This document shows positions 23,791 through 64,000 of a stretch of 64,000 bases of DNA, in pieces. The stretch is from NCBI GenBank assembly GCA_030141605.1, contig JAQGDQ010000037.1, positions 749,001 to 813,000 on the forward strand, given 5' to 3'. The stretch comes from Tubiluchus corallicola (taxonomy: Eukaryota > Priapulida > Priapulimorpha > Priapulimorphida > Tubiluchidae). The notes under the pieces are model-generated. The model ran no database searches. It saw only the letters and a program-made list of their open reading frames with translations, and had not been told where the DNA came from. A program made the translations under genes and the position numbers. Every line of letters starts with the position of its first letter. The stretch's first letter is position 1.

Positions 23791-25523
23791 CGTATCTAAC
23801 GTGAATGTAATGGTAAATGCAACAGGTCTGATGTTTTTATGTAAAGTCAGAATTTTTCTAATTTCTCCAACACAGCCTGTTCTTTGCTCTGAAATGAAAG
23901 AATTATTTGATTACAGCTACATTGTTCGGCAGTCCTTGTATTACTGCAAGTTGTGTAAGTTTGACTGTCCATTTTTATTTTTAGCTAGTTATGTATTAAT
24001 CTAGCAAATCATTTGTGAATTTCACAAACATGAGCTAAATTGCAATGTGAATAGCAGAATAGGTCAAAAGTTGCAAGTACAAAGTTATAGTTGAAAAAGT
24101 AATATGAAACAGTGGATGAAGATTACATTAACATGTTCCATAGTTTCTGAGCTTTACAGTTGAGAACTATAGCTCATCCTAACCTGCCAAAAGAATAGGT
24201 AAAAGGTTGCTAATTTAACAAACCGTTTAAAAAGAATGCATTGAAATTGCATTAAATGTACACTTGGCTCAAGTTTTTAAAAACAGTAGCACACATCCAA
24301 GCAAACAAGCATAATTAAAAGCGCTACCGTATAGTCACGTGGTTATGGGAGTGGAAATAAACTAGTTGTGCACCTTGGATACTGTTTTTTTGAAATGAGA
24401 AATGTAGCAGTATTAGTGTTTGTCAGTGACAGCCCTCCCATAAAAATTGGTTCTTGACCTTCGACCTTTAGATCCCATAGATGCATCAATTCTAGTATAC
24501 GTCAAGGTCAATTATAATTTTGTTGTGCTACAACCCAGTGGGTAATTTGGCAGTTATAACCAATCATCCTAACTGAATGCAGGAGTACTGGAAGCTGAAT
24601 ATAAACTGAAGAGGTATCTCATGTTTCATACAGTAGTGCAGTAAATTCCTGAATCTTGTGAATTTTGTCAGACACTGCCCTTCTTTGAAGCGGCTGCACA
24701 AATCCTGTTCTCTGATATATACTTTTGGAAAAGACCCACTCCGTAGGGAAAACTATTTTGTGTCTTACAAGATACCGAAGATGTTATTTAATTTTTCAAG
24801 CATGGGACTAGGCATATATTTGAAGTAGTTTCGTAGGATTGGTTCATGTAAATCATATTAGGCTAGAATTGCCCATACATCCACTCCATTAAATGGGGTA
24901 GTACACTTCTTTCTTCTATTTGGTACAGCATGTTTTACCTTGCTATTTTAGTACTTTTTATCTTATGTATAGTACAAGCCGTTCAAGCAGTCCGTAGAGC
25001 CATATATATTGAGTGCTGACGAGTGATTATTACTAGTTGCTTCTGCTTTCAATGTTAGACTCGTTAATAAACAGTAACTGTTAGTTTTTAGTCTAAGGTA
25101 ATAACTAATAATATCTAATACATTTTTCAATAAGATTTTTCATTAAGTTCTTTGCACAGTGTACCATGTGAAGACGTTTACAGCACTTGTGTTTGCCATC
25201 TACTAAAGCCACAATTAAACTAGTTAGCAAAAACCAGATTATCGTTAATCGCTTTTGTAGTTTTTAAAATGGGCTAATGTTTCTAGTTGTTATTTTTGCA
25301 AAATTACATTAAACAATGTAATGTAACACGTGTAGTTTTGACATTTTGGTATATGTATACCGTCCCATCTAGCTATTTTATTGAATAGTAAAACTTTTAA
25401 TCGACTTGCTTAACATTAATTACTGGAAAGTTTTCTAGAAGTGCACGAATCTAGACTAGTAAAAATTATTTTCGCTAAAATATAAATTTTACGTAAATTA
25501 TGTACTGCAAATACGTGTATACG

Positions 25524-28322: not shown

Positions 28323-31300
28323 TTAAAGTGCTGGGCAGTTAAGATGTGAGCTCCCTTCATAGTTTCCTGCAAGACAAAAATATTATTGAAGTTAAGAATG
28401 AAAATAATTGGGGTAAAATCCCTCTATGAGGTAAATGGTGTAGAGTGAGAATTGAAGCGGTTCACCCATGCACCCACTGTATAGTCTTGGTGCCATCTTT
28501 ACTTTGGTAACCAAGATGCTGCTGTTACCATTGGACTCACAGATGCCCGTGTTATTCACTTGATTAATATCAAGGAAAAAATCAAGGCACAAATGCAGTA
28601 CTTACTAATGTGGCACCTTCTATTTAATTGCACTTAATAACACGCTTTCACGGGGGATACACATAAAGGCAAACTCTATAGTGCACTTGATAGTTGACCA
28701 ACGCTCGAGTGGAAAAGTACAGTTATCTAAGAGTAAACTTCTACGTCATTAAAAATTAAATTCAATCTAAACCCTCACCTAATAATAAGCGTTTACAACC
28801 TAAAATCCTAAAATCTTACACTCATTAAGAATTTTCAATTTATTTTATTATAAACTTACTATAAAACTTGTTTATTTTGATTTTTTGTCACTTTGTTATT
28901 AGCAGTATCAAATTTGAAAAAATGCCATTTTTGTTCTTGAGACAAATGATGTAATGAGTACAGTCACAATGTCACGAAAGATCGATAAACAAACATTGGT
29001 AACCAAAGACGCTTTCTGTACCTCGTACATTATCCTCACTCACTCTCACCAAAGACGCAAAGACACCAATGCACGTTAAAAAAATTCAATGTCTGTTGCG
29101 GCTTTATAGGTCTCTAAATGAGTTCCTTAACACCTTTACCTAATAAAGAGCAGACTCACAACCGACTAGAGAAAAGGATCTCATGATGGAAACGTCATAA
29201 ACTATCTGTAAAGTAACAGCTGAAGCAGGCATATCTTTTTATTTCTGAATTTTTTTGAAACCGCTCTTCAATTTCACATCTGGATGCTGAACACAGTTGT
29301 ACTGATTTTGTCTTAACCAATTTTCCTTACTTATTTGTTTCATGCATTATGCTGAGGATAGTCGCATTAATGTGGTACATTGATGGATACAGAAAGAGAC
29401 GTAGAGAAGACGTGCGACTCACCACTTATTACGGCATTATATACTTCTGAGTGCATACTGCTGTCTGGAGTTGAAACAATGAGTGAAACCATGTCATCAT
29501 GTTTTGAAACATGTACAGCATGCGCATCGGGTATAGCAATGTCGACACCATTGATGAATCCAGCCGCTCCTGTAAAACAATACATTATCACAAAACCAAA
29601 ATATCAGACTCAAAAAATGTCTTCCCAAACTCTAGAAACTAAAATTTCAACATTTATTTTACAAATAACTATGGCAGAATGACAGCCGAGTGGTGACATT
29701 CATATGTTTCATTCCGTGAACGGCATGTGATTCAATACCTGTTCTGCCATTTCACCTACCATACTGATTTTGGCTGTTTAACTCATGAAGGGAGGATGTA
29801 AACATATTCGAGTGGCTGAAATACTTCTATTGGGCCAGTAGCTCATTTACCAGGATGTCCTTGACAATGAGCTATGTTCTAGTCATGCCACAATCATCAC
29901 ATTAAGAAGGACAATGCCACTGTATGCTGGATTCCAGCTTGCAGTGTGCCAAAGACAATAATAAAATGCCTAAAGAAAATTTAAATACAAGTGTAGATTA
30001 GTAAGAGCCAAATAGAATCATACTGCAGCAACAGCAATAATGAATTTTAACAAGTTTACAAGGTTTTGTGGATAAACCTTGCATAAAATAATTTCTTACC
30101 AAGATACGGTAAAATTGTGACAAGTTGGTTCTTTTTCACTATGGCCAAGAAGATATCCGGTTTCGGTCCATATTCAAAAATTTCCAAATCAACTGCATCG
30201 CTATAATCAATTTTGAATTTGACTTCGAAGTGATCTTCAGCTTGATCATACTTTAAAATCTGAAACAAGATACTCACAAATAAGACCTAAGACAATAACA
30301 AAACAACTACAAATTATTTTTTGATGATTTTAACTAATTAAAAAATAAGATTTTGTGATATTAAACCTAAAACATGCCAATTTAAAAGTTTGTGCTTATT
30401 TGAATTTCTACCATACTAAGCATAAAAATTGGTTGTTTGCTTGCCAGACTTATTTTCCACTCATTGCAAAAAGGGTGAAACTGCAACACAAAACAAGAAC
30501 AACAAACAAAAATAAAGTAAATAAACATGTAAATATATAAGGAACAAGCATTAACATACCAGTAGTGTGTGCATATTAATACAATGTGCAGGACTTTATT
30601 AATTGTACAAAGCATTTTCAAACTTGATAAACCTAATCTTCTGTGAGAATGTTTTATTTACTAATTTTACTAATGTATTATTTTAATTGTTAAGTCTTTC
30701 ATAGTCTATATTGTACACTCATGCTTAATTTCCAGTGATATAATATTATGTAAATTCAAGTTAAACTTCTAATTTAATTTTTTTAACTAATGAATGCACT
30801 TACAAACTTTTTTGAGGATTTGTAAATTTTCAGAAATCAACAGAGCAGTGACAGCTCGTGTATAGGTACTGTGGTACTGCAGCATCCTCTGTTTTCACTC
30901 ATTATTGTCGATAATATTTAATATAATAATCTTTTTTCTTCAGTTCTTTCTTTATACTTGTGGGGAAGCAGAGCATGTGAGGGAAGTACAATTTGCTTTA
31001 CAGTCCAAGCAACGTGGTATTTGGCCTCTGTGCGCATGCGGCTATGCACACAGGTCTGAGATAAGACACTGTACTTTAGGTAGACAGAGTACTGTCGCTC
31101 ACTGCAGTACGTGTTGTCAGTTGTCACGTGTTTAAAAGCTGTGTATCAGCATATGCTTGAACTGCGACAATTTGGGCTATTCATAAGAAAACAAGATTTT
31201 TTGTTTAGAAGTTTATGAAGGTTAGGTTTAAATTAGTTTGTTTGTTTAAAATTACAATTACAATATTATAATTACCTATGTTTGTTTCGTTTTATATAGT

Positions 31301-34300
31301 ATTAAAACAATAGCTAAAATTTTTTAATTTTGTAGCACTCTCACTAATTTTTGCTATGAGCTGCCACTGCAACAGTGGTCTATAATAGCGGCATACTGAA
31401 CGCACAACTACAGGCATCTATATATTGTGTGAATGCTTTATTTCTTGTGAAATTTTGATATCACTGAGAATATTTCACCTTCAGGCAGTAAATATTGACA
31501 GCAGGTTTTCCTGAAATGAAGCCACTAGCAAAGTAGGACAATGTGTTAAAATAATCGATCAGGGAAGACCAGAAAAATTATGCTGGTGTGAAAAATATAC
31601 GCAGCTTGCTTTAGCTTACAGTACATTTTATATAGCTTTGTTGTGTAATTGTAAAAATTGACAATATATGAGCCTTACCAATACATGAAGTTCAGATTCT
31701 GGATTCAGGCAAGTAGAAAAGAAGAAGCATAATTCACCATCCAAAACATAATGTATAACATCCTTGTATAAATGTGTATCAGCCTCATTCAAATGCACAG
31801 AGACAAATTGTTTCTGAAAATACAAGATCATCAGCAGCCATCTGTCACACAGTTTGCTTTATTCAAATGATCATAAGCCAGTTGGCCTGAAAATAATATT
31901 CCTCTTCTCAGTCTCCAACCCAGATCATAAATGTTAAAAGTCAAACGTAGTAAAAATACTTACAGTCTGATGGTCGAATTTAAACAGCAATGAATGGTGA
32001 TCTTCTTTTTCGGGGATTTCACAAGCAAAAACCAAGAAGTAATCTCCATTGAATGCAGCTGCATCGACGGCCGTGATTTCTGAAAAAATGACATAAAACA
32101 TTACTACACTAATTTCAACGTAAGTAATAACTTTTTAGTTACTAATATTAATTTTTGAAATAAATTAGAAGTTTCACTTTTTGTTGATTCAGATGACACA
32201 GTTAAGCTAGGACTCCATTTGAGGGCAATGTGTGATCTGTGGCATACTGACTGTTTCCATGTGCCTGTGGAAAGCTATGCGTCTTAACAAAGCTCAAGGG
32301 TTCTTTTCACTATTTTTGGTTGCCTGTTCACGAAAACTGGGAATAATTTTTGAAATTTCAGCATGATAATTACAGCAGTGGCATTAGCTTATTACTGAAC
32401 TATTCAAGGCAAAGGAAGTTTTGGGTGAAAAACATTTTGAAAGAAGAGAAAAGTACAGCATGTATCATTGTTTAGTGAAATTAACTGTAAGTACAGATGC
32501 ATAGCATAGAATTATACGCTTCTTATTGCTGATTGTATGTCCCTAAGTGATCAAAATTTCACTTAACCCGAATTTCCAGTTAGCGAAAATCATTATCAGA
32601 AAATCTGAACTCGCTTGATACCATAAGCATCTGTGTATTGCTGCATCATGCATATTCAGACCTACACGAGTGAATACGTATCACAAATCACACATTACGG
32701 ATTATGTACACACTGAAACACTACAATGTATTTAAATACAAATTGTTGTATATGAGTTACATATCACGTTATACACATTATTTACACAAGGAGTCATAAC
32801 TTTACAACCAAAAGTAAAGAACTAGCATTAACTGTGTTCTACATTCCATTCTATGTGCTACCAGCACAGGCTCACATTAGTATGTACAAAGGTAAAACAG
32901 GATGTCCAATGTATTCACTCACTGTTAAAGTTAATTATCTGTTTTACTTCATACAATCCACTGGACTCATTGAAAAACATGACAGAAGAACTAGCATTAT
33001 CATCCTCCACTCCGATGACAATGTTCAGCTCATCACCAATGAAGAAAGTATCTACATCGGTTACAGTCGCATTTGTTAGGAAACCATGTAAATTGCCATT
33101 TGTATCTACCACAGTTGTCCCCTTTATGCCTGCAACGTAAATGAAGGTGATTAATTCAAGGTGAGTGTTTAGCTAATTTAAGCATGGTAAAGTGAGCTCT
33201 TACTAATCTAGGCAGCTTAAGAAAAGTGTAACTATGTTAACTATCAAGATTTGAATTGATTTTCTTTGCTAATCACGCAAGTCACTGAAGCATTAAGAAT
33301 ATAATAAAATAATTCGAAATAATACTGCCAGATGGGCTGAAAGACATAAGAAAAATTTGGATGTCTGCATCAATCATCTTGGTTAGTACTACCAACAACA
33401 GTACTATAGTATAGATATTTAAAAAATTTCTTGTTAATGAACTTCTGACAGCGAGACTTTTGTAAAAAGTTTCTATGCAATTTTCGCAAAATTGTTCAGG
33501 AAATTCCAATTCCAAAACAATAACTTTGCAACTTCACTAAATATTTTAAGATGCTGATTAGTTTGATTGATTTAGGTCCTGTTTAACTAATGGGAAGCAG
33601 AAAGTGTCTCTGCATGATAGTATATCATTTTGCTCCAATCTAGAGTCAGGGTTCCCCAGGGATCAGTGTTAGGGCTAATTTTAAGAGTATTTATGTTGCA
33701 TATTTAATATTTCAAAAGTAAAAATATTGTTAATACATGGTGACGAGAGTCGAGTATATTTTTCTCTTAAACCTAAAATTCCTCATTCTACAACAGCAAA
33801 CATCGAAAACTGTATATCTGATATTAGAGTTTGGATCACCTCAAACAGTTAAAACTGAATAAAATGAAAACCGAATGTCTGATTATAGGTCAAAGTTCAC
33901 ATTTAAATTTTGTTACTCTTGTTGGCATATATATTGGTGAATCATTGACATCTCATAGGCAGACCATCAAGAACTTGGGTGTAAAAATTTTTTGGTCTTA
34001 AGTCTTTTAATTAATATATAGTCACCGTTTGTAATAGTGCATTTTATCATTTATATAACTTTTACCATGAAATGAAGCATCTTCTAACTAGATCATCTGC
34101 TGAAACACTTGTGCGTGAATTTATATCATCCAGGCCTCACTATTGCAACAGTGTTCTAGTTGGTTTACCCATTATAAATTTTTTAAATTATAATTAATAC
34201 AAATTTCTGCTGCTCGATTTATTACTGGCACCAAAGACACTGGATTTTATTACCGGTACATCTTATACACATCTTGTATAATGCAGTTTGAACAGTTCCA

Positions 34301-37300
34301 TTGTTAAAGGATAATAAAAACTTGCATAATTATATAGTTATGTATATTTAGCAAGCAATAGAAGGAACAGATGAAAATTAAAAGTAAACAGACAGGTTGG
34401 TCATATGACATGATGCTGTTTGCTTAGACAATTGATTATTAACTGTTAGAAATGTAGAACACTAAATGGTAAAACTGTTCCAAACGTTGACCTAAAAGCA
34501 AATCAAATTTTCTAATTCAGAACTATTTTATTTTATCATTTGAACAAAAAAAAACTTCAATTCAGTGACAAAGACAATTTGAGAATATCTGGCATTAATA
34601 AAATTATTTACGGTTGATCACTAACCTTCACAGTCAAGTCCATTGTCAATAACAATCAATAACTGACGACCTCGGTAAGTAAAAGCATGCACCTTGGTAG
34701 AAGCTCCAGTATTAAATTCTGCAAAGCCTGTAATAAATGAAAACACAAACTGAGTTACAGTGTGTAATTAACTAATCAATGCAAACTGAATTAATATCAG
34801 TCCAATTCGAAATTTACTGTACAATTACTACTCAGGTTAAAATGAAGCAATTCTGTATTTCTAATATACTTGTAATTTTAGATACTGATTTGTAAAAATT
34901 TCAGCAAGAATTTTTTCTATGGTATGATAAAACTTTCACAGTGAGGAATTTTTTTCACGCTGTTAAAGCACTACTCTGTGGATTCTACCCAGCTCTTCAT
35001 TTTCTAATGAAAAACAGGACCATGAATTAATGACAGGACCATGAAGTGATGAGAAAAACTTTTATCATATCATTACCGGCATCAACAAGATCACCATGAA
35101 GCCACACATATCTCTTTGTGTTTCTGCACTGGCCAGGAACACCATATGACTGGTACAAGTACTGGTTGCCATCAATTGTAACAGTTTCAAAATTGTGTGC
35201 AGCTGGCAGCGTTGTGAAATGTTCAAAATACTGCAGAAAACTGACCGATTCTGAAACGACAAGAAATCAATGTCATGTTCTATTCTAAAGCAAGACCTAT
35301 ACAGGGGTGTTAAACAATACACATAGGCGATGCAATAGTGATAATGATGAGATACAATACTTTTTTCCCAAAAACAATAACAATAATATCCAACACTTTC
35401 TTCAAAAAAAATAGTGATAAGCTATTTTTTTTTGCAATAAGATACGATAAATTATTTCGAACAATAAAAACGATACCAAAGTTAGACAATCTATGCAAAA
35501 ACAGAGTGTCATTAACAATAAAGAACATTAAGTGCTCCACTGCATTCAGTGCTGTATACTTAAAATTTGGCTGCTAGTTAATTATAAAGCACAAGTTTGT
35601 TTGCCATAATGATTCGTAAATAAGTAAACTGCGACAGGTAAACATATAAAAATATTTATCTATGCGAGCTGCACATGACCGAGAAACTGAAAAATACCGT
35701 ACAGTGTATCCACGCGCATCAGTATGCAGATGGTCGTTATTGCCAGGCAAAATTACAAGAAAACGATTCCGCGTCTGACAAGCTTATAATTTTAATTAAT
35801 ACTTTTTTCTTTTTATCCAGTTCTTTGCACAATTACTGTCAATAAATAGAAAAGAAGGGTGAAGCGATTTTATATGGGTAAACGATAAGCAACAATACAT
35901 GCCAAATTCAATGCGATAGTGATATTCCCAAAGACAAATGCTGAAATGTTTAACACTAAAACGTACATTCGAATAATCAACTGGAAGTAGTTACAGAAAG
36001 ACATTTACCATTTAACAAGTTACTGTAATTAGCAACTCTGTTACACTGATCTGCCACACTTTGCTGAACCTTTGGTACCTCGCTTGCCAAAAATTCATCC
36101 AGATTGTAAACACTTTCATTCAAACTCTGAAAATGGATAACATATTAGTAAGATGGTTCTACCAAAAACATCTATAACATATAGGACCCTATAGTTCAAT
36201 AATTTAATTATAAGTAGTAGCACAGAAATACTCTAGCATAGCATAGGAATAGCATAGCAAATTCAATTACTTCTAGTGATACAAATCCCAGTGAATCAAA
36301 AAAGTTTTTGTTGCATTTAGATAGTTCACTACAAATGGCAAGCATGGGGCTAGAAAATCTTACCGAATTGGATGGATGTAGTATGCGGGACACTTCTCAA
36401 ATTAATAAAAGTTTCGATTTTTTCTTCTCTTTACAAGTAAAAAACGACAAAACTGTTCAATATTCTAATACTCACCAAAGTTACAATGTAATTATTACTT
36501 GAAGTAATATTTTTTGCGCGCTTGCATACGCTGCGATTTGTTCCTACATATTACTGCTATTGCGTTGCATTCAAAAACTTAGCAGCGGCAGAACATGCAG
36601 ATATAATGTATGTGCATAAAAATTATACAGTAACTGTAACTGAACTGTTATATTAGCGATCTTGTTCTATAAATAGGCGGCTTACTGCTATAAAGATGAG
36701 ATATATTGATTTTTTGCAGTACTCCAGTTAGCCATCTAAGCCTCACCTATGGTCAGTATTAAAATTCACTTCATAATAAGTGTTGTCTTGCTCTGACTCA
36801 ATGAGTTGTGCTTGTCTCCAAATTATGCTATTATAATTACCATAGCAACTTGTTTTGGCTTCAACCAGTACAAGACAAGTGCCAATATCTTAAAAACTTC
36901 ACAGTATAATTACTTTTTGGCACTCAGAAGAACTTCCTTCTGTAGGAAAGCAACATCAGACATAACAATTAAGTGCCTAGATGGGTGATGTATTGCAAAA
37001 TTATTGTTTGAAGTTGTCCTAGCAAAGTGATGGAACATGTGAGCTCCTTTCTTAGGACTCTTTTCTTAGTGCAGTTCTAAGAAATTTTGTGGAATAGTAA
37101 AGTCACTATTCTTGGTTCGTGTTCTTGGTGGGTATTACTAACTAATACTATGAGTGAGTGTGTAACAATAACTGAAATAATGTTTGAAGATACCAACTGT
37201 ATTAGCAGTGGGAATACAGATAAATAATGAAAATTCTAATAAAATTGATATTTTAGTAGTTCAACTTCTTAAATCTTCATGGGCTCTGTGGCCCTTTGCT

Positions 37301-52300: not shown

Positions 52301-55300
52301 CTGCCAACACACTGACCACAAAACTGGATGCAAAAAAGTCACCCAGGCGGAATCTATTACGCTGTTGACAATAAAAAAAGACAAACAGCACTTTAGTCAT
52401 TAATCACGGTAAATAATCACATGCCAGGCCTTCTGAACTGTCTGTTTTTTTCTAGCGAAAAAATTAAAATATTGCTGCATCACATACATTAATATTAACA
52501 TACAAAAGCACAAGGGCATCTATTTCTTGGGACGAGTTTTTTAGTGATGTTCCAGAATGTTCTGAGCATGACATAATCAGGACAAGCAACAAGAAGACCC
52601 AAACATAATGTTGGAGCTATAAGAAAAAGTTAATAAAAAAAAGTCAGGGAAGGAAACTGAGAGGTGACCATGGCCCAGACTGTGTAATGTAATGAGGCTT
52701 GTGTCTAAATAAAGCAGTCAATAAGAGGAAGTCACTAAATAAACTATCAGGAAAGAAAACTGAGAGGTGACCATGGCCCAGACAAGGCAATATAATGTTG
52801 GTTTGTGAGGCTTGTGTCTAAATAATGCAGTCAATAAGATGAAGTCATTAAATAAACTCAGGAAAGGAAACAAAGAGGTGACTATGGCCCAGGCAATGCA
52901 ACATAATGATGTTTGTATCTAAATAAAGCAGTCATTAAGAGGAAGTCACTAAACAAACTATCAATGAAGGAAAGTAAGAGGCGACTATAAACAAACTATC
53001 AATGAAGGAAAGTAAGAGGCGACTATGGCCCAGACGTCCAATATAATGAGGTTTTTGTCTAAATAAAGCCACCAAAATGAATAAATATAACATGGTTATC
53101 AATACTCTCAGTAACAAATTCCATGGGTAGATTTAAAATCCTCATACACAGTAAATACAGGATTGCAGCCATTAGCAACTGACTCCAATGCTGATACAAC
53201 AAAATTTAAAATAGCCAAGTAAGATTTAATATTAATATGATTAACCTGTAATGAAATAGTAGTCAGCATCCAATTTGATAACATCTTTTCCAACATCAAT
53301 ACCATTGACATAGCCACCCACGTCTGCATCTCCATTAACAGTAGTATGCTTGCTGAATTTATTCACACCTAGTGAAATAAATAAAAGAAAAGTTATTAAC
53401 ATAGAACAAAGTCATAGAACAGTGTAACATACTGAGCAAAAGAGTAAGAAAAAAGTGAAGCCCCGGGCGGCAGCAAGCATTTAGTATATGAAAGGGTTCT
53501 CCCGAGACTTGCCATTTTAATATAAGAAAATGTCGAATGCCCATGCAGTCAGTCTCAAAAGAATTTTTTTATTTCATACAGAAGCTTTCACCCTAGCGGG
53601 CTTTATCAGTTGACAAATTACAGATAAAATGCTAAAAACAGTATATACCAGTATGAAACAAGGATGTTAAAAGCTAAATTAACATATCTGATTTAAGATA
53701 CAGTAAGTTGGAGAAAGATTAAAATTGACTGGATAGGAAGAAAAAAACAAGCACTATACAAGTGCTAAAATGCTTAATTAAAGAAAGTAAACAGTATAGG
53801 TATAACAAACATACACTCATATCTCGGTTTGCCGGACAAAAGCGGGTGAATTTGCGGATTGTCTGTATTTATCGATACTAAGCTAATACAGTAGGGTGCT
53901 GTGTATTAAACTCACGGTAATGTAGAATCAATTGCCTAATTGTCTCAAAAACATCTAGTACATACCGCTCCTATGCAAAAGTATATAAAAACTGTCTGCA
54001 ATTGACTCAAATAACTCCGCACAATTGATTATATTTTTCTGCACATGCTTTACATTGATGTAAACAAACTGACACCCCGTCAAGTAGTGGTCAGCTGACA
54101 AAACAATGGATTGTGTTCATAGTATGCGGGACTTTTTAACAGCCCAGATTTTGTCTGATTCTTCCAATATCCGTAAAAGCGAGGTTCGGCAAACCGAGAT
54201 ACGAGTGCACTTGCATAGGCCATGCTGACTGCAAGAAACAAAAATAATTATTTTGAGACTACAAGGGCATTCAACGTTTTCCTAAGCAGGTACTGTATTT
54301 TCGCTGTGCATTTTGTATTGGTAACGTGATTTCACTGTATCCCTTTTACACCGATTCTCACATTCACCAGTACAGCTTCCGTTACATGTATTACAGTGGC
54401 AGAGTTCAGACGAAAATGACAGTTTTGAAAGCTGTACACTATGTTCATACTGTAACTGAAAATATTAATCAACAAAAGTAAGGCACTGACATCCAGTAAA
54501 TATAAGTGAAAAATTTGAATTTTATGTGAAATAATAAGAAAAACTAATACAAAAATTAATTTCACTTGATAACATTCCACGATTATACACTAGAGAAATT
54601 CACTATTGTACCGGTTAGTACTTGTGAGCCTGATTTTGTGACAACTTCTTCACCAAAACTGATTGCATCAGCACTTGAAACATTGTCCCCATAAACTTTT
54701 CCAATAATGTTAACATTGCCATCTACATAAAGATTTCCTTGGAATATCTTTGGTCCAGTGATATTTCTGCTAAGTCTGTCATCCCTGAAGGTGATCAATA
54801 AAACATTTACATTCAGATTACCAATAAATCACACAATTTGTTTTAAAATAGAAAATATCGGTACAGCAAGACGGGCAGCTTAAATTTAAGGCATCACACA
54901 ATAACATTTACTTCAAGAAATAAATATTACAATAATACAATTAGATTTTCTGTAACGACGTTATAATAAATGCAGATGGCACTGATTCACTCAAGCTTTA
55001 TGTATATCCATCAGTAAGATGATTTCTTCTCAAGTAGAAATTTGAAATACAAACAACACTTGCCAGTAATCTTTTGAAGCAGGCTCCATGCAGTGGAACA
55101 GTGGCTGATGATAAAAAACAGAACTGATTAGGCCATTCAGGGAGATTGAAATGAATGAAATTTTGACCATGTTACACTATGATGTTATTCAAAAGTATTC
55201 CATTAAATTTGAAGTTAACAAGGTAATTTTAGCACTGCCTTGTTATGAAATAGCATTGCCAGAAACCACAAAATTCGAGTATTCCAGTTCTTTCCAGGAC

Positions 55301-58300
55301 CAAACTTTCTTAATACCGAAGTAGTGGGGTTTTTCAATAAAATAAACAAAAAATAACAAGAGAATCTTAACTAACCGTACGACTTCACTGTTAAGTTTGC
55401 TCATCGACACATTGTTAATTTCAGAAGTAAATAAATGGTGAGTGTGCAAATTGTAAAACATTTTTGGCCTGTCTTCGAATGTGATATTGCTTGTTGCATT
55501 TTGCCAAGTTGCATTCAGAAGAAAAGCATCTGAAATAAAATAAAATGTAGTATTCTCAATGGAATTCTATACAAAGCAAAATTTGATAAATATTTTGTAA
55601 TAACTAAATGCAATCTGCAAGGAGTAGCAACAGTATTAATTACCTTGCAGACGCAAATCAGTTTCATTGATAGCCGCCAACTGATTGTTCAACTGCTCCG
55701 TGAGTTCTTCCAGTGAAAAAGCATACTCTGATATGTTAAGAGTTTCATTTCTGCCGTCAACTGTTATCTTACCTGAAGTGTTAATTGAAAATTAATAGTG
55801 ATAGGATTTTAAATAAATAAGTAGTTCTGCTTTTAAATACACATAATAGACAGATTCCTGGCTGTTACAGCTTTAGTTTACCCTCAATAGGCCTACATTA
55901 GTATATGGTATCAATTATATTGTATTAATTTCACAGGCACAATAGCTTTATTTGCTTTGGAATTGTTCTCCTTATCTGGCACAGAATAATGACGAACAAC
56001 TCGCACTATTAAAATTATGATTAGAAACAGCATATCACAAAAACCTACTCGAAATGCACTAAATTTAACACTTTACAGTCTTGCCTATCATAACCTATAA
56101 CATACAAAAACAAACAGCCTTCAAAATATAAAACTAATTGAAGTATGTTTTTTATACATTTGCAAGTCAGAATCTTGGGGGTCCGTGCTTAGCGAGATAT
56201 CTGAGTGTGACTAAATCGTGGTTCATTATTAAGGATATCCTTCTAAAACAAGCCACTAGACCAGCAGAAGTGTCTCAGTGCCACATTCGGAGTTTAGACG
56301 TATATATCCTATATCTCAATAAGGTTGAGGTTGCTGATATTATTCATGAAGTTTACTAATGGTACTATATTATTATGGCCTTTAATTTTACAGTAATATC
56401 ATGTTGTACACACATTTTGGTATATCATATATTACATTTATATATTTTTTCATCTAACCTTATTAGCTTTACCTATACTGCTATTTATTGACTAATCCTT
56501 GTACATAATTTTGTTATTGTACTCGACTATGGATAAATAGTAATAATAATAATAACGATAACAAACTCGTGTAAAACCAAATGTGCTCATCCACTCAGTC
56601 ATGATTAAATCAATGAAATTTAAACAAGCGAAAAAAACTGTAGCTTACCAGCTTTACTTTATAAATTATATTAATTGACAGGTGGGTTATGGAACAGTTA
56701 TATATGACGACACTACAATAGCATACAGAAGCAACATGGCTATACAAACTTCTGTTTCACAAGTTATTCACTAGTTCAACTTCAAATTTTTTGTTCCTAT
56801 TCGACTAACGACGTTTATCTTGCGTCGTTCTCTTACTAAATACTTGGGAATGTTTTTGTAGCTCAGGTGGTAGAATGTTTGAGTACTAATCCCAAGTCTC
56901 GGGTTCAAATTCCAACTAGTCAACAATTTTTCAGTATCTGCTTTCTCCAACTCATTATCCGCAATGGGTAATAATTGGTAAAATGAACCGCAATGGTTTA
57001 TAAAAATTCTGGCAATCACAGTCATATTTAATAAATGTTTTTGAGTCTAGTTTTGAAGTTTTGTGCTGTTCTCTTCAGCTGTCATGCTGATTTGGGGCAG
57101 AAGTGTCAGACTGCATGAGCTCCTCGATCATACACAATGCCATGTATTTTTGTATAGCTGCATTAAGAGCAAGGTGACAAAATTCTCCCACACTATAATA
57201 ACAGATGAGAAATGTACCTCTGTTACTCACGAAGTGTTATCTAATGTCGATTAATCAAGCATGTGCAAAAAGTTGTTGGCTTAGTTTTTTTCAAAAAAAG
57301 GTGGCACTCACTTTTAGGAGCACAGCACTTGACATATAGCTATGTATGACTAACATCACCAAAATCCTCTTGAATCGTAGACTCGGTAACTAGATTGTCA
57401 TGTGGATCCCTATCGTAATTTCTATTTTATTAAACTTTTAAATGCAATGAGTGACTTACCAAACATTCTTTATACCGAGAAAAATTCTCAGAAGACAATG
57501 GTGACATTCGGATAAATTCATTAAACTTTAATACCTCCAGCCACAGACAAGTTGCTAGCTTTTAATTCTCTGTTAATAATAACAGGTTTCAAGATGGTGA
57601 GGTTCCCAGTAATGATCTGACTGCTGTTATCTTTGAGTGCATCATCAAATATTGTTCTTGTAAGGTTAATGTTTAGTTCATGTTGCTGAGTCTTCTCCTG
57701 GAAATCAAACAGCAGATATCACGAAACTCGAATTTCTACTAATTAGGGATATTAATCATAACGATATGTATCGATGCAAAAAACTTATTTTCATCACTAT
57801 CGTACCAATGTTATTTCACTAATGTCGTTATCGCATCGAATGTGGCACGTATCGTTGCTTCTCACTTACCTTGATAAAATCGCTTAACTTTTCTTTTCTA
57901 TATATTTACAATAATTACACAAAGAAGCGGATAAAACTATAAGCTTGTTAGACGCTAATTCACTTTCTTGTACTTTCGCCAGGCAATAAAGGCTATCTTC
58001 ATTCTGAATCATACTCACAAAGTATAGAGACACCTTTACACACTTTGATACTTACGCACGGATTATTAATGATACTTTTTCTGTTGTGGCTTAAATTGTC
58101 TAACTTCAGTACCATTTTTTAATATTCGAAATAACTTATCACATTATATCGTTATCGTCTAAAAAATAGTTTATCCTTATTGTATTGTTGGAAAAAATAC
58201 AGTATCATATTGTTATTGTATCGCAAAATTTGTATCATTTAACATCCCTACTACTAATGATAATAAACGTGAATGAATTAATAAATGAACTAGTGAACGA

Positions 58301-61300
58301 AAAAAAGGAATTAAAGCGTACAAATATACTTACAATAGCTTTGTCCACATTTTTCTTAACATCTAAAGCTTGAACCATTACTGGATCGGGAACTTCAACG
58401 ACATTAGCAAGAAGAGTATAAACATTAACCAGGGACACACCATTTGTAAATGGTAAATACACATGGGACTTGAAATTGCAAACGCTGAACTGAGGTATGG
58501 TTCCAACAACATCCAAATCTGTAAGAGCAATAAGAAAGTTGAATAGAAAAGTTGACATTCTATAAATATAATTAAAAACATACAATAAGAAACATGTTAG
58601 CAAAAATGACTAATGCTTGTTGTATACTCATTAAATATTATGTGTGAATAGAAAGAAAGGACCACTATGGTTATGACCGGTACATAAAGCCCACTCATTT
58701 AATTCCTGCATTAGTGCAAAAGCCAAAAATGTTATTTGTTCTGTTCGCATATTGAATACCAAACACTGCAACAGAAAGACCACAGTAAGTATAGATTTAC
58801 CTTGTTTTTCAGATATGACAAACGAGTTCTTCACAGCATCAACAGTACGAATAAGCACAGCAACAGAACTGTTGTACTGAACCAAGACTGCTACTTCTTC
58901 GTTCCAACCATAGTCAGGATTAAAGGCTGCTTTCACACTTCTTGCACCAGCTATCTCAATTTGTTGATGTTCGACAAATCTATACCCTAAAGTATAACAT
59001 TAATTAGTAGTATTAGCAGCAGAAGCACCAATAATAATAATAACATTAATTTTTGCACTGTGTTTAAAAATCAACTTCAACAAATGCATAATAAGATATG
59101 CAATAAATAAATTTATTCTAATTTGAGTAATATGACAGTATTCCAATAATGAACTGAGATCACTTTCCAGTTTATAAGAAGTGGGAAACCTTACAAAAAA
59201 GGATAAAAACATAAAAGAGACAAACTAAACCATCTGGTGTGGCAGGGGCTTTAAGTTTAAAAACTGAATAGACGAACGCTGTCCTAAATCTAACAACGTG
59301 CAAGGTAAAACTAACTGCAAAAGTTGCAGCAAAATGAATATATCAAAGCAAACTGTTAAATGTAGCGATAAAAGAAACTACCAAGCAACAAACCTTTGAT
59401 GAGCAACGGGTACAAAAAATTGATTTTAAAGGGTACTGATTGAGACTAACCTTTGATGAGCAACGGGTACAAAAAACTGATTTTAAAGGGTACTGATTGA
59501 AACTATCAGATTGGCAATATAATTTTGCAGTCTGTCAAATGAATTATGACAGAGAATGCAATAGCCGCTTACATATAGCGGATACTATATTCTCTGGTTA
59601 TTTTAAATAACGGATTAAGTGTCAGCCCCTCATTACTCGAATTTTTTTGGATAAAGTATTATACAGATAAAAAACCCTTTTATTAAATACAACTTATAAA
59701 AGATTGCAACAAACAGTAATAGATAGATAGATAGACAGATACATAGATAGATAAAAACTTTTTTCACCAACATTAAAACAACACATGCACAGGGCCACGA
59801 TGTATATAATTGTATTTTGCATCCACGGAAACAGCATATCAGCCAGCCACTATTATGACTGGACCGGTAGTTAGCAATAGCGTAAGACTATTCAAAGACA
59901 ATAACTAGCATAATCAAAACACATAATGTACAGAGCATACACGCGTAAAGAACATAATGGTTAGCATAATCAGAAATCAAGTCTAATTGCTGCATAAAAA
60001 AGGACTGAGTATAAAAGATATTTACAGTTTCCATATTTGATGGTTTGTCGAAATCGTGTCGATTGACAGGTATTGTAAATTTTTTTAGGATTGCACATTT
60101 TAATCCTGTTAATTCTTTTGCTATCTTTTACTACCTACAGTATAGTTTCTACTCACCATTCCACTTAAATACAATCAATGGGCCTTCACCTTGCACAATA
60201 AACAAGTGGTGTTTCAATCCAATAATTACATGGGCAACATCTATACACTGTTTTGCTGGAATGCTGAAAACAGAAGCAAAGCTAAGTGAAAGGAAGCTAA
60301 AGTAGCCGCAAGAACGAGGCACTGACTAAGGCATTAACTAAAATCATTAGATGCATGTCTGAAACAAACCCCGAATTAAGTAAAGTAAACCCTAAAGTAA
60401 TTTTGCTAAATTATTTTTTCACTAGTAATTGCCAAAGAATACAGTTGTAAAATTAACTGCAAACAACGCAATGAAGAGATGTTTCAAATCTGTGTATGTG
60501 CTACTGCAAGTATACTTCAGAATTCTTGTGTCTGTGGGCGTCCTTCTTATTTGGTGTGGGTAGCTTTTAATATTCTTTTTGGTGTTTTTGAATGTGCAAT
60601 TTAATGTGGGCATAGTGTTAAATTGTACAAGCGTAGGGTTAATGCTGAAAAGTATCGGCATAGTTTTTCACAAGCCGAAGTAATGCTGTGGAACTCATAT
60701 CGGAATCATTAGTTAGTGCGAATAATGTAAATAGTTTTAAGCATAAATTTGATTCAGAACTCCGTGCAAGAAACCTCCCATTTTAATACCAGTCGGTATA
60801 TTATGAGCAGAATTATAAACCAACAACGAACAACTGGACAAGGGTGTTCTTTGGATAGCTACACAGTGGATGAGAGATTGGCGCAAGAGACGAAAATCAG
60901 GGTTTACTCACTACAAAGATGAGTTACGAAGGTGAGTGAGCAATGCAATTAATAGAGTTTGTATTTTGTGCACTTGTGTATTGTGTAGTATTTTTTAGTA
61001 AATTACAAATATGGCAATAGTAATGCTGAAATAAAAAGTGAATTGAATTTTCACTGGTTCCCTAATAAAGAAATAACATTATGTAGCCCACACCGTTGGT
61101 ATTCAGTGAAAGTATTTGTAGAACCATCGAAAACGTAAACTACAGAATCGGCATCGACATTCCCAGTGGATCCCCTGTTGCACGCCACAGCAAGTAAGGT
61201 TTTGTGAATAAGTACTAATTCAATTTTCGAAGTGCCATTACTGGGAAATTCAGCAACAACTTGTGTATGGGTATATCCTGAAAGAAAAAAAATTTGTTTC

Positions 61301-64000
61301 ATTCATTAGAAGTATACCCCATCAGATTCAAATTATGCTAGTTCTATTCATCTAATACTTGTTCAGGTATTTGAACTTAGATTTCAGTACAAATAGACTC
61401 CTTTTTGAAAAATGTGGTAAAACAAAACATTCTTAACTGACAATACCTACAAAACTAATAACTCGTTTATTTAGACATTTCGGCTCACTTTGCATGTTAT
61501 GAGCACTGACACACTTTTAATTTGAATAAGATCAACTTGTGACTTGAATTTTTAACTTCCGTATTTCAAACTGAGAGTTGACATTATGACGAATGTGACT
61601 GCAGTTGAACATTCCAAAGATTATTATTACAATGTAATTCAACAATTTCATAGCTACAAAAAGATGTCAATTAAAATATTTTCAGAAAATTAAATGGCTA
61701 GAGTTGAAAATGCGTTAAAACCCATACCAATACAGTTTAAAGTAGAAGTATGAATTACAAATACCACAGAACAAAGTATCTTATACGCACCCATAGTGCT
61801 AAACAAACACAAGTAATTATGTGACTCATAAGGTCGTGCCATCACTAAATACCCTTTCCCTGTTTCCACTTCCTTGTAGCTCATAGATACAACACCTTCT
61901 AGTTGCAATGATTGCACGAGTTCATCCTACAATAACAAAAGCTGTGTGAAGTAAACTGTATGCTATTTTTGCTAGTGACATCTTGCTGTATAAATCAGAA
62001 AATTTTTTACATTTAATTTTAACAAATGCATCTATTTTTGTTTAACTTCATTTGAAAAAGAGAAAAAACAATAATTGTCTTATAAATAACGGTAGAGCAT
62101 TTTGCTGATAATATGACCCCTTTTAAGTGAAGCATTAACTACTGATCTCAAATGAAAGATGTTAAGCGAGTTGTAAAGATTGAACGCGAAATCTTTCAGA
62201 CACCCCATTTCAAAGCAATGTAACAACTAGAGAAAGCGAAAAAATTTTGATTTTTGAAAATAAAAACCTACGAGTTTTATCTTTGCATTATCAACTGATA
62301 CGCGTTTTACTATGACTTCACTGCCTGTTGCCATAACAACATACCGCTCTCCAGTGGCACCCGCATGAAAACTGTAAATGTCTGTAATCCCTGGAAAATA
62401 CAAAAACACATTGCCTAGAGATCCTGCAAATGTATAACACCTAATTTGAAAGTTAACTTATGCAACAAACGCAAGCTTAAAACAGCACTGAAAGCAAAAT
62501 ATGATTGGTATTGGTGTCAAAATGTAATTCAGATATTGCTGATGATCATATCATACTTAAAAGCTGACGAAAAAAATTTGTGCAGGCAGCAATAAACTCT
62601 ATTGATTTTGGCAGGACGTCAGTCATCACCGGTATCTCCAACTCCTTTAACTGCAACATTGGTTTTCCACAAGAGTGACATTACCAGTTCACAAAGTGTG
62701 CATGAATTTAAATATGCTGGTGATGGCAGTATTGTTGTGCAGCATTCATCTCCTGAGCAATGCCATAATAAAGCCAAAATTGTTGTGACACCGTACAGCA
62801 GTGGTGTTATAAATGGAGATTGGATATTGACTGTGCCCCCAATAAAACCGAAGTAGTCCCATTTGGATTTGATAATGCCCACCTGGCTCAACTTGAAAAC
62901 CCCACGATTGGAACCAAAAAATAAAATACGTGGAAGCCAGTAAAGTTCTAGGTATTATAATAGACAAACAGTTAAATTTCAGTAACCACGTGGATGAAGT
63001 TAAAAAGAGAGTCTGGCAGAGATGGCATCTTATCAAACAAATGCCATCAAACAATGTCGTAGACATAAAGGGCCAAGTCTTCAAGGTGTGGAAGCACTAC
63101 AAAAAGCTGTCATTTTACCAGTGATTGTCTAAGCATGTGTGGCATGGTTTAATACCAAGAAATCGTATTTTGATGGCATATTTTATGATTTAATGAAAAT
63201 GGTGGCAGGCACATTATTTAAACATGCAAGAGAAAAACTGGAACACATATTGGTTTAAAACATTAGACATAGAACATAACAGGTTAAAAATGCTAAGCTA
63301 TTGTGAAGATGATATGGTGCATCAACATATGGTGCTTATTTTCCAGGACAATAGACAAGTAGCTTACAAACATTTTATGAAATACCTCTGGGCAGAAACT
63401 AGTGAATATCTAAAAGAAAATAACTCAGTTATACAGTAGACCGCAGACATAGTACAACTCACATGTGATGTGCTGTTATACAAAAAATCTGAGAGTCATT
63501 CTTAATGAATCAATGGTACAGCAGATTTAGAACACAAGGACAATTATCAGCTAGCACTTTACGACCAAGAACTCTATGGTCAACCAGTAGGCACAGTTGA
63601 GGCACTTCATCAGAAAGAAAAAACAAACAACTACATGCTAGACATAACCTTTAATAGTGGTCCTTTACCAATTGATGCATACTTCACCAACACCACCAGT
63701 ACAAAGATATACCAACATATATATAAGCCCATCGGCCCATCAAAGAAAAAAAAACTATTCAAGTGGAGTTGATGACTACAGAGTCACAATTTGACCTTTA
63801 ACAGCCAGTCACTGTGATCTTTCGCAACAAATTTTTTGCTGGGAGCTAACAGTGATTAACAGACAGGTTAATTATGCCTAGTTTAATAAATGGATTAAAA
63901 AATGGTAAAGTAGTTATGCAGAGAATTTACACTCACCTGGGTAAATGTTGAGAGGAGTAGTAAATTCGACGTCACTCAAATTTGCATTCAACTGGTAAAT
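28323..64000 (-). CDS. Very large secreted repeat protein gene (partial, 42 exons), function unknown
   Basis: Forty-two exons join in one open frame from 64000 (gene continues beyond) to a TAA at 28325-28323: 5,835 nt, 1,944 residues plus stop. All introns are GT..AG and every phase agrees (28 phase 1, 11 phase 0, 2 phase 2). The three segment entries give exon positions. Architecture: propeller-like block (residues 1-327 of the visible part), degenerate modules (328-1544), a linker with two cysteine sites (1545-1641), and a second propeller-like block (1642-1944). N-glycosylation sequons are frequent, cysteines scarce, and no transmembrane segment is seen, so an extracellular protein is likely. 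The signal peptide should lie outside the window. Possible roles are extracellular matrix, egg or body coat, or adhesion; I cannot assign one. Several introns carry transposons. Confidence 0.88.
29676..29755 (+). repeat. tRNA-like (Leu/Ser-type) SINE candidate
   Basis: TGACAGCCGAGTGGT resembles a class II tRNA A box, and GTGATTCAATACC lies about 45 bp downstream where a B box is expected. There is no good acceptor-stem pairing and no terminator. It lies in an intron of the large gene, antisense. Confidence 0.3.
33640..34250 (+). pseudogene. Decayed CR1/L2-like LINE reverse transcriptase
   Basis: Frame-shifting translation gives recognisable RT landmarks in the correct order: SGFPRDQC (for GVPQGSVLG), IRVWITSN and EKPNV-like residues (for W-x-x-x-N-x-L-K-x-N-x-x-KTE), KHLLTRSSAETLVREFISSRPHYCNSVLVGLP, then a segment for the AAARLITG region. 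Stops and frameshifts are numerous. It lies in the intron between exons 36 and 37 of the large gene, antisense. Confidence 0.75.
35302..35939. mobile_element. hAT-like element, decayed copy of the 57744-58250 family
   Basis: The element begins CAGGGGTGTTAAACAATAC. Read in reverse complement, 35700-35925 matches 57845-58000 (GCATGTATTGTTGCTT, AAAATCGCTT, CTTTTCTAT, ATAAGCTTGTCAGACGC, GCCTGGCAATAA). It is therefore in the opposite orientation to that copy. AAGAC near both ends may be what is left of a target duplication. It lies between exons 34 and 35 of the large gene. Confidence 0.65.
37637..37710 (+). repeat. tRNA-derived SINE candidate
   Basis: TGAGTGATATGGCGCATGCCT resembles an A-box region, and GGGTTGCAATCTC about 40 bp downstream resembles a B box (GGTTCRANNCC) with one change. 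No clear acceptor stem. In an intron of the large gene, antisense. Confidence 0.3.
38863..39227. mobile_element. PIF/Harbinger-like MITE, inverted relative of 12922-13376
   Basis: The left end GGGCCATCC..TTTTCGGCCGATTTCGAGGAC matches the complement of the right end of the 12922-13376 element (with a 15-bp deletion), and the right end ..AACTTGATATTGTTATATGTG matches its left end. It lies in the intron between exons 31 and 32 of the large gene. Confidence 0.65.
39617..39922. mobile_element. hAT-like MITE
   Basis: The left end CAGGGATGGATTATCATTTGGGC and the complement of the right end (CAGTGCTAGATTATGACCTTTTGGG) are related inverted repeats. The flanking octamers CCCAAATC and CACAAGTC agree at six of eight positions, as expected for an old 8-bp duplication. 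It is 306 bp, between exons 30 and 31 of the large gene. Confidence 0.6.
42025..42287. mobile_element. Mariner/pogo-like MITE, TA duplication
   Basis: Ends CAGGTAGTCGTCGACTTAC and (complement of right) TAGGCAGTTGTCGACTTATG are inverted repeats, flanked by TA at 42023-42024 and 42288-42289. It is 263 bp with no ORF of interest, between exons 27 and 28 of the large gene. Confidence 0.7.
42778..43002. repeat. Tandem duplication, two copies of about 113 bp
   Basis: GCTCTAACTAAGAT, TTTTTTCTTGGTGGTTTATA and GTGTCATTTC..GAAG..GTCTGGA recur with a 113-bp offset and scattered differences. Intronic in the large gene. Confidence 0.8.
43895..43960 (+). repeat. tRNA-derived SINE candidate
   Basis: AATGGTAGTGTGCTCGCTTCC (A-box side) is followed by GGGTTCAACTC (good B-box match) about 40 bp downstream. 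The D-arm and T-arm spacing fits a tRNA, but the acceptor stem is not convincing. In an intron of the large gene, antisense. Confidence 0.4.
50492..50587. repeat. Tandem duplication, two copies of 48 bp
   Basis: TCACAGCATGATACACATCAT..CTATCCCTCACGATACGA is repeated exactly one period apart with three substitutions. Intronic in the large gene. Confidence 0.9.
51605..51900. repeat. Long intronic foldback (imperfect hairpin)
   Basis: The arms (about 51624-51741 and 51761-51878) are imperfect inverted repeats, e.g. GCACAATGAGCATGTAGTAGA against TCTATTACATGCCCATTGTG, TTGCAAGAGTT against AACTCTTGCAA, and GCCTGAAAATT against AATTTTCAGGC, with a loop of only about 19 bp. A transcript would form a long hairpin. 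It lies between exons 13 and 14 of the large gene. Confidence 0.8.
52640..53065. repeat. Minisatellite, about 4 units of 103-111 bp plus a 38-bp inner duplication
   Basis: The landmark GAGGTGACCATGGCCCAGA (or its GAGGCGACTA variant) starts at 52661, 52764, 52875, 52978 and 53016. The rest of the unit (GTCTAAATAAAGCAGTCA, GAGGAAGTCACTAAA) keeps the same order. It lies between exons 12 and 13 of the large gene. Confidence 0.85.
53814..54207. mobile_element. Pogo-like MITE
   Basis: The left end CACTCATATCTCGGTTTGCC and the complement of the right end (CACTCGTATCTCGGTTTGCC) match at 19 of 20 positions. TA precedes the left end. It is 394 bp with no transposase ORF, in the intron between exons 11 and 12 of the large gene. 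The CTCGG..-type ends suggest the pogo/Tigger group (inference). Confidence 0.7.
56853..56915 (+). repeat. tRNA-derived SINE or tRNA pseudogene
   Basis: TAGCTCAGGTGGTAGA is a near-canonical A box and D-loop (56859-56874), and GGTTCAAATTCC (56902-56913) is a canonical B box at tRNA spacing. The anticodon arm and acceptor stem do not pair well, so a SINE head or degenerate tRNA is more likely than a working tRNA gene. In an intron of the large gene, antisense. Confidence 0.5.
57744..58250. mobile_element. hAT-like element with exact 8-bp target duplication
   Basis: CTACTAAT is repeated exactly at 57736-57743 and 58251-58258. The element starts TAGGGATATTAATCATAAC and ends ATCATTTAACATCCCTA, imperfect inverted repeats of the hAT type. 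It is 507 bp with no transposase. It lies between exons 7 and 8 of the large gene. Confidence 0.85.
59391..59504. repeat. Tandem duplication, two copies of 57 bp
   Basis: AACCTTTGATGAGCAACGGG and TTTTAAAGGGTACTGATTGA are repeated one 57-bp period apart with very few differences, so the duplication is recent. Intronic in the large gene. Confidence 0.9.
59719..59752. repeat. (ATAG)n microsatellite
   Basis: Imperfect ATAG repeats, with GACAG and TACAT interruptions. Intronic. Confidence 0.85.
62590..63440 (+). pseudogene. Decayed LINE reverse transcriptase
   Basis: Pieces of an RT C-terminal half are readable across frames: a PNKTEVVPFG segment, EASKVLGIIIDKQLNFSNHVDEV (the thumb region of LINE RTs), then a stretch corresponding to the W-x-x-L..LLY region. 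Stops and frameshifts are frequent. It sits in the intron between exons 1 and 2 of the large gene, antisense to it. TE-like sequence may extend to about 63780. Confidence 0.65.

Follow-up and report, generated by a model that had tools for sequence, protein, structure and literature searches.

The locus considered here raises the question of what a very large protein could be that carries propeller-like blocks on both sides of a repetitive centre. It lies in the window, the whole stretch of 64,000 nucleotides that was analysed (C2279:749001-813000), in a genome of 343.5 Mb in 2,344 contigs. Answering the question depends on whether there is a single gene, on how its product is laid out, and on what its central modules resemble.

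The gene and its exons

Exons were sought with a gene finder based on codon log-odds and splice-site matrices (generic matrices), which was run on the minus strand of the window and then on the window plus 18 kb past its right end. The final chain was hand-picked from several of these runs, and the gene model comes from DNA sequence alone. It is a single minus-strand gene of 44 exons, in which all 43 introns are GT-AG and all phases are consistent; the introns have a median length of 705 bases (range 114-2,116). Its predicted start is an ATG at extended coordinate 67067 (C2279:816067) and stops at 28323-28325, which predicts a protein of 2,086-2,095 residues. The part in the window comprises 42 exons, wholly or partly, with 5,880 coding nucleotides, that is, 1,960 codons including the stop. 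The exons are listed below with their support ("chain", the hand-picked chain; "profile", the module profile; "finder", exact agreement with the re-trained gene finder).

C2279:816067-815930, minus: exon 1, 5' of the window, less certain (extended run; other ends in finder)
C2279:815386-815251, minus: exon 2, 5' of the window, less certain (extended run; missed by finder)
63937..64000, minus: exon 3, start of N-terminal EAR region, extending to 64134 outside the window (chain, finder; acceptor 6.9, donor 9.1)
62272..62390, minus: exon 4, N-terminal EAR region (chain; finder uses acceptor 62423)
61791..61926, minus: exon 5, N-terminal EAR region (chain, finder)
61094..61277, minus: exon 6, N-terminal EAR region (chain, finder)
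60157..60281, minus: exon 7, top EPTP match of the N-terminal flank (chain, Pfam, finder)
58801..58986, minus: exon 8, N-terminal EAR region, end uncertain (58678 in finder) (chain)
58334..58518, minus: exon 9, last of N-terminal EAR region (chain, finder)
57535..57697, minus: exon 10, stalk start, degenerate module (chain, profile, finder)
55644..55772, minus: exon 11, stalk, degenerate (chain, finder)
55376..55529, minus: exon 12, stalk, degenerate (chain, finder)
54612..54784, minus: exon 13, stalk module (chain, profile, finder)
53246..53368, minus: exon 14, stalk module (chain, profile, finder)
52051..52179, minus: exon 15, stalk module (chain, profile, finder)
51121..51345, minus: exon 16, two stalk modules within a single exon (chain, profile, finder)
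50179..50304, minus: exon 17, stalk module (chain, profile, finder)
49470..49622, minus: exon 18, stalk module (chain, profile, finder)
49230..49343, minus: exon 19, stalk module (chain, profile, finder)
48295..48426, minus: exon 20, stalk module (chain, profile, finder)
47755..47891, minus: exon 21, stalk module (chain, profile, finder)
47277..47388, minus: exon 22, stalk module (chain, profile, finder)
47017..47150, minus: exon 23, stalk module (chain, profile, finder)
45507..45663, minus: exon 24, stalk module (chain, profile, finder)
44427..44545, minus: exon 25, stalk module (chain, profile, finder)
44157..44288, minus: exon 26, stalk module (chain, profile, finder)
43689..43797, minus: exon 27, stalk module (chain, profile, finder)
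43199..43351, minus: exon 28, stalk, degenerate module (chain, profile, finder)
42337..42468, minus: exon 29, stalk module (chain, profile, finder)
41623..41726, minus: exon 30, stalk module (chain, profile, finder)
40617..40770, minus: exon 31, stalk module (chain, profile, finder)
40297..40398, minus: exon 32, stalk module (chain, profile, finder)
39295..39464, minus: exon 33, stalk module (chain, profile, finder)
38462..38624, minus: exon 34, stalk, degenerate module (chain, profile, finder)
37400..37551, minus: exon 35, stalk, degenerate module (chain, profile, finder)
36009..36126, minus: exon 36, stalk end, possibly helical by eye (chain, finder)
35077..35250, minus: exon 37, C-terminal EAR region, top EPTP match of the C-terminal flank (chain, Pfam, finder)
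34626..34727, minus: exon 38, C-terminal EAR region (chain, finder)
32923..33129, minus: exon 39, C-terminal EAR region (chain, finder)
31964..32079, minus: exon 40, C-terminal EAR region (chain, finder)
31679..31813, minus: exon 41, C-terminal EAR region (chain, finder)
30100..30286, minus: exon 42, C-terminal EAR region, acceptor 30259 looks likelier (chain, finder)
29423..29569, minus: exon 43, C-terminal EAR region or tail (chain, finder)
28323..28366, minus: exon 44, C-terminus and stop codon (chain, finder)

A finder re-trained on 49 pieces (2,811 codons) from the related loci described below and from two neighbouring genes scored 463.5 here, compared with 23.0 on the opposite strand and with 15.8, 20.5, 21.8, and 27.1 on four simulated first-order Markov sequences. 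It recovered 40 of the 44 exons exactly to the base, gave other ends to exons 1, 4, and 8, missed exon 2, and added three further exons (64300-64205, 62947-62630, and 54094-53966); its training is not fully independent, because this gene had supplied the training for the model that annotated the related loci. A reading of the region as several genes was rejected since the phases chain across 44 exons and the re-trained finder spans the region as one gene. Finder score and phases thus agree with the original prediction that one gene lies at this place, with exons that join without phase conflict. The 42 exons then counted are the in-window part of the present chain, whereas the predicted length of 1,944 residues differs slightly from the 1,960 codons found here with the stop; splice choices can explain this difference, for example, the acceptor 30259 of exon 42 over 30286.

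Several choices in the chain were matters of judgement. When introns were penalised only lightly, 201-208 exons resulted, mostly spurious, and a penalty of -12 gave 45; from the latter run, the exons 62891-62630, 54094-53966, 53190-53148, and 52323-52250 were dropped, as none of them holds a module or is needed to keep the phases consistent. The second of these, 54094-53966, which the re-trained finder also returned, could be a genuine exon. The chain was cut at ATG 67067 because the hydrophobic leader opens there, the finder itself having continued upstream to 81165. Exons 1 and 2, which sit 2.2-3.1 kb outside the window and supply the ATG, the leader, and the coiled coil, are our choice from the extended run and are less certain than the remaining exons: exon 2 is present in that run at penalties of -9 and -12 and absent at -14 and in the re-trained finder.

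The window also contains a probable MOCS1 gene (minus-strand frames 5404-6288 and 12148-12459; MoaC, E 1e-55; radical SAM, E 1.8e-11), an open minus-strand frame of 414 codons with C2H2 zinc fingers (22666-23910), a plus-strand frame that matches CR6_interact of the GADD45GIP1 family (19349-19810; E 3.8e-12), and an uninterrupted plus-strand reverse transcriptase frame of 514 codons (15008-16552; RVT_1, E 4.4e-37), by its look a non-LTR element, which may be young. Introns of the large gene contain short tandem duplications, each of two copies with a unit of 38-114 bases, at 42777-43003, 50492-50587, 52950-53026, and 59387-59505.

Layout of the protein and related loci

Residues 1-20 are, by hydropathy, the strongest hydrophobic stretch of the protein and are signal-peptide-like. 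Behind them, L38, L42, F45, M49, A52, I56, S59, L63, and L66 stand, by eye, in the heptad a/d spacing of a coiled coil, which is followed by R-L-R-R-S, a candidate furin-like site. Two EAR regions (residues ~86-469 and 1726-2075) then enclose a stalk of 1,256 residues (470-1725). EPTP repeats are found in both flanks (E 2.9e-5 and 4.5e-6; 24.5 and 27.1 bits, compared with the Pfam gathering score of 21), so the EAR/propeller-like blocks claimed for both sides of the centre stand. An EPTP family search of the genome lists nine exon-by-exon matches, none of them inside this window. EAR/EPTP repeat regions have a beta-propeller fold, and from family membership, both flanks are predicted to be propellers.

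Apart from the leader, the only strong hydrophobic stretch (mean hydropathy 1.81) is formed by a strand of one module at 1143, and its appearance is not that of a membrane helix. The protein carries 61 sequons, and its centre holds three cysteines in 1,256 residues. The sequons and the lack of a likely membrane segment beyond the leader bear out the extracellular signs first reported, and leader and sequons together suggest that the protein is probably secreted.

Known secreted proteins with EAR/EPTP repeats include LGI1-4, TSPEAR, and ADGRV1, which combine them with leucine-rich repeats, laminin-G, or seven transmembrane helices. The protein described here shares with them EPTP repeats over the Pfam cut-off and a leader peptide. 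However, it has two EAR regions with ~1,250 residues of modules between them, and it has no leucine-rich repeat, laminin-G, or seven-helix membrane domain in Pfam at E up to 1, where its other content is one DUF match below the cut-off. It is therefore an EAR-repeat protein by the repeat test, yet one that appears to fit no named subfamily by its other domains. Such a protein was not found described in the open-access literature searched; relatives without a name may exist in animal protein databases, outside this comparison.

Related loci in the genome were located with a hand-made module consensus. C1027 carries modules together with an EAR region on the N-terminal side (EPTP E 1.2e-23); on C231, more modules are accompanied by an EAR region on the C-terminal side (E 2.6e-9). 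The start of C231 (L010:1-1542) is a copy of C1027:32328-30792 with 98.1% identity over 1,542 bases, and it ends in a tandem-repeat stretch; the two are therefore probably one gene split by the assembly, or two near-identical copies. Past the overlap, C1027 continues into retroelement-like coding sequence (30691-30133). The third locus, C723, comprises a helix-like exon at the N-terminus, a region like the N region of C1027, modules, and a C-terminal EAR region (E 1.2e-11); the coiled-coil motif D-x-[YF]-L-E-x-K-L-x-x-F is, by eye, also present there.

The end regions of these loci could be compared with each other. The N region of the window gene matches that of C1027 at 1.7e-6 (best shuffle 0.017); between the C regions, the window gene matches C723 at 8.2e-4 (best shuffle 0.084; reciprocally, 0.0071 versus 0.015), the best shuffles across six region searches being 0.0044-0.12. 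The N region of C723 resembles that of C1027 (phmmer 1.7e-4); searched by itself, it does not match EPTP at E up to 0.1. The regions do not pair off cleanly: the N region of C1027 is nearest to the C region of C723 (3.2e-8), and single-sequence hhalign between regions gave no pair above 35% probability. It is nevertheless likely, on these comparisons, that two more very divergent loci (C723 and C1027/C231) share the layout of the window gene, as drawn from automatic-finder exons that we hand-picked. Two further contigs (C2123 and C1319) that matched the typed consensus gave no module-profile match at E < 0.05 and were dropped; the consensus-matching C473 and C2174 and the EPTP contigs C1921, C1312, and C2286 were left out of the profile comparison.

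The stalk module and its resemblances

The centre was originally described as degenerate modules carrying the motif [VIL][ND]G-x-[DN][ILV]-x-x-[LFY]. In this literal form, the motif matches only twice in the 1,256 residues (shuffles: mean 0.04, highest 2) and, in a looser form, seven times (mean 0.22, highest 3), and with so few literal matches, a plain motif count was rejected as proof. The module itself, however, is real by profile. When 21 modules were aligned from exon-bounded strings and each was scored by a profile of the other 20, 19 of the 21 beat all of their 300 shuffles and the other two beat all but one and two (p 0.003-0.010), although this test is favoured because the strings were cut by eye. 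The 21-module profile finds 21 strong copies at residues 627-1574, contiguous except at ~1309-1355, and weaker traces at 486, 1313-1352, 1576, and 1660. The stalk consists of at least 21 tandem modules of ~42 residues, and probably of about 25. Stalk sequences have no match in Pfam at E up to 1 and none under 0.15 in PHROGs; the centre has, as first noted, no place in a named family by these searches, and the Pfam search placed the modules in no characterised family with the same architecture.

An iterated profile finds 56 modules at E < 0.01 (21 in the window, 11 in C1027, 8 in C231, and 16 in C723), with the consensus GNKtFtGdVTVaGNLtVnGLVNGVDISeLanDaVtLsGDQTI. Each module has some four G-x-phi-x-phi-x hexads, a turn with the sequence VNGVDI, and a short segment that resembles a helix. 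The six-residue repeat is seen in columns 1-21 of 58 aligned modules, where 89-100% of the letters present in columns 5, 9, 11, 15, 17, and 21 are hydrophobic (columns 9, 11, 15, 17, 21, 24, and 26 in 84-100%; F5 in 43 of 45 letters) and where G, N, D, or S occupies columns 1, 7, 13, and 19 in 100, 64, 81, and 70%. Among 48 periodicity tests, a glycine period of 6 is clear in the window stalk (p 0.004), absent in C723 (p 0.50), and present in the C-terminal EAR region as well (p 0.014), which counts against the trimeric fibre proposed below.

Sequons are concentrated on the stalk, with 53 in the centre versus 19.8 in shuffles, compared with 4 versus 3.2 and 3 versus 2.4 expected in the two EAR regions. 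The related loci have 31 versus 19.4 (C723), 37 versus 16.5 (C1027, including its EAR region), and 7 versus 5.3 (C231), the last of which is not significant and counts against the trimeric fibre. Shuffles of the modules that preserve the columns give 35.8 sequons for 54 observed (p 0.0005). In strand columns 2-21, one count puts 29 sequons in even columns and none in odd ones, and the column-preserving test puts 28 and none (20.0 expected, p 0.013), Asn being found 21 times in odd and 77 times in even columns. This split is partly mechanical because the odd columns are hydrophobic; we take the pattern to suggest that sugars have been selected for on the side of a beta structure that faces outward.

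Searching the PDB with the module profile leads to phages. Profile A1 (21 modules) gave 13 matches up to E 5 among 177,635 PDB sequences, of which the first nine are phage baseplate or receptor-binding proteins, seven of the TP901-1 type (E 0.0041-0.0058); two matches are to "major structural protein 1" (E 0.26), presumably of phage Tuc2009, and the remaining ones (superoxide dismutase, aldehyde dehydrogenase) have an E of 0.28 or more. With profile A2 (49 modules), all nine matches up to E 2 are to the same phage proteins (best E 0.018 for the whole sequence and 0.37 for a single stretch), and the reversed A1 modules had no match in the PDB up to E 5. The hand-made consensus matches 3d8m at E 3e-4, with the alignment GNVVHKTGDETIAGKKTFTGNVEVNGSLT. 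Matched chain positions are 46-62 (33-61 with the hand-made consensus). One account of the TP901-1 receptor-binding protein describes a linker (31-39) leading into a beta-prism (40-63) with a six-residue repeat in which three chains are interlaced, and a helix preceding the prism (PMC3893620); the matches would fall in this linker and prism (31-63) if chain positions equal residue numbers. The comparison with phage tails suggested at the outset was apt, the best PDB matches of the module profile being receptor-binding-protein necks.

The iterated consensus has as its top Pfam match the phage lower baseplate protein BppL_N (E 2.2e-5; 24.3 bits versus a cut-off of 25.8), a match obtained from the consensus only and not from the real stalk sequences. 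In PHROGs, it has ten matches up to 0.1, the best to a tail fibre protein (E 5.9e-5), three of the ten being tail proteins and six of unknown function. A near-reversed consensus reached, at best, 8.3e-4 in Pfam and 2.2e-3 in PHROGs, one PHROG matching in both directions, and therefore a factor of about forty separates signal from control. Bactofilin, a single-chain beta-helix, matches weakly in both directions (forward 0.0071, near-reversed 0.012). Against the consensus, 8 of 94 candidate stretches were confirmed in viral contigs and 1 of 90 in prokaryote genomes; all that the confirmed viral contigs have in common is a short LSGDQTI-TGNKTFTGD-like stretch. Scored with the module profile, these contigs reach an E of 0.012 (L019) or 0.063 (L017, L018, and L024), and L020-L023 and L025 have no match.

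Like the TP901-1 neck (BppL_N), in which a helix precedes the prism (PMC3893620), the module has the hexad register G-x-phi-x-phi-x and a stretch like GDxTI-x-GxKTFTGxVxVxG. Unlike that single short neck, it is repeated at least 21 times, includes a turn and a helix besides, and belongs to a sequon-rich animal protein, and its consensus is just under the BppL_N cut-off. The apparent resemblance involves 16-30 residues, weak E-values, and few independent phage sequences, and it could reflect either shared ancestry or convergence on an easy repeat. AlphaFold2 models of two single module exons, with other exons as the alignment, have a pLDDT of 58.5 and 67.8 and a pTM of 0.29 and 0.30; strands in them are few and short, and both contain a short hairpin at the VNG position and then a helix.

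Alternative architectures and their meaning

The layout is well supported, and for the fold we infer a trimer. Our tentative reading, whose chances we put a little short of even, is that of a secreted, N-glycosylated fibre with an interlaced trimeric beta-prism stalk and EAR propellers at both ends, which acts as a cross-linker. The chain would run from leader through short coiled coil, first EAR region, module stalk, and second EAR region to a short tail. The coiled coil would gather three chains and start assembly; the hexads of the three chains would interlace into short triangular beta-prisms, as in the TP901-1 neck, and the prisms would stack into a long stalk with N-glycans outward, both ends of which would carry clustered EAR propellers. 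In LGI proteins, the EAR propeller binds partners, and by analogy, the heads could do so at both ends, with the glycosylated stalk setting their spacing; the protein would then cross-link over a long range within an extracellular matrix or coat. Counting against this trimer, a coiled coil sought at locus C1027 within 16 kb was not found.

Hexad repeats also form single-chain beta-helices, and the stalk might be a beta-solenoid of triangular coils, about two per module, which would make the protein a monomeric rod capped on either side by an EAR propeller. The in/out alternation and the outward sequons fit this equally well, and Bactofilin matches the consensus weakly; however, some four hexads followed by a turn and a helix-like stretch would interrupt the coils every ~42 residues, the highest-ranking matches come not from solenoids but from parts of phage tails or baseplates, whether in Pfam, PHROGs, or the PDB, and a coiled coil stands before the first EAR region. 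We regard the solenoid as rather doubtful, if a serious contender. Another possibility is that the modules are small independent beta domains, like beads on a string, without a continuous fibre fold. This would suit the 18 of 27 stalk exons that start in phase 1, the pattern of shuffled extracellular domains, and the AlphaFold2 models, which placed only the turn and the helix, with moderate confidence. It is made unlikely by the size of the module, ~42 residues being small for a free-standing fold in a centre with only three cysteines, and by the hexad register, which continues through the module.

A different kind of explanation concerns relationship rather than fold: the three loci could be the counterpart of Nasrat, Polehole, and Closca, proteins of the insect eggshell, arthropod eggshell proteins having been suggested for comparison at the outset. 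Two reports describe these as secreted members of a heterotrimeric complex, each of which needs the others (PMC10576393, PMC6303783), and the present genome likewise has three divergent loci, apparently of one layout, whose products we infer to be secreted. Transcripts annotated as nasrat are also reported for shrimp ovary (PMC6131155), which counts in favour, whereas a horseshoe crab transcriptome reportedly yielded neither nasrat nor polehole (PMC4711587). Moreover, no paper with both Nasrat and EPTP was found in the open-access literature searched. The arthropod cuticle domain PF00379 has no match in this genome, nor has PF14830, but control genomes are equally blank, so that absence is not implied; a search for COX1 in the genome likewise came up empty. 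Such a relationship seems quite unlikely. Decidedly improbable, too, is the more specific proposal that C2279, C723, and C1027/C231 form an obligate heterotrimer, with a phage-type woven stalk and six EAR propellers, three at each end.

These findings add to the EAR-repeat proteins a double-headed, fibre-like architecture and a repeat module absent from Pfam; the three loci that carry it form a set that appears to be old. If the woven trimer is true, animals use a phage receptor-binding-fibre fold, by descent or by convergence, and there would be a model, open to testing, for large coat proteins that depend on one another. If Nasrat, Polehole, and Closca share the modules, a heterotrimer would explain why each requires the others.
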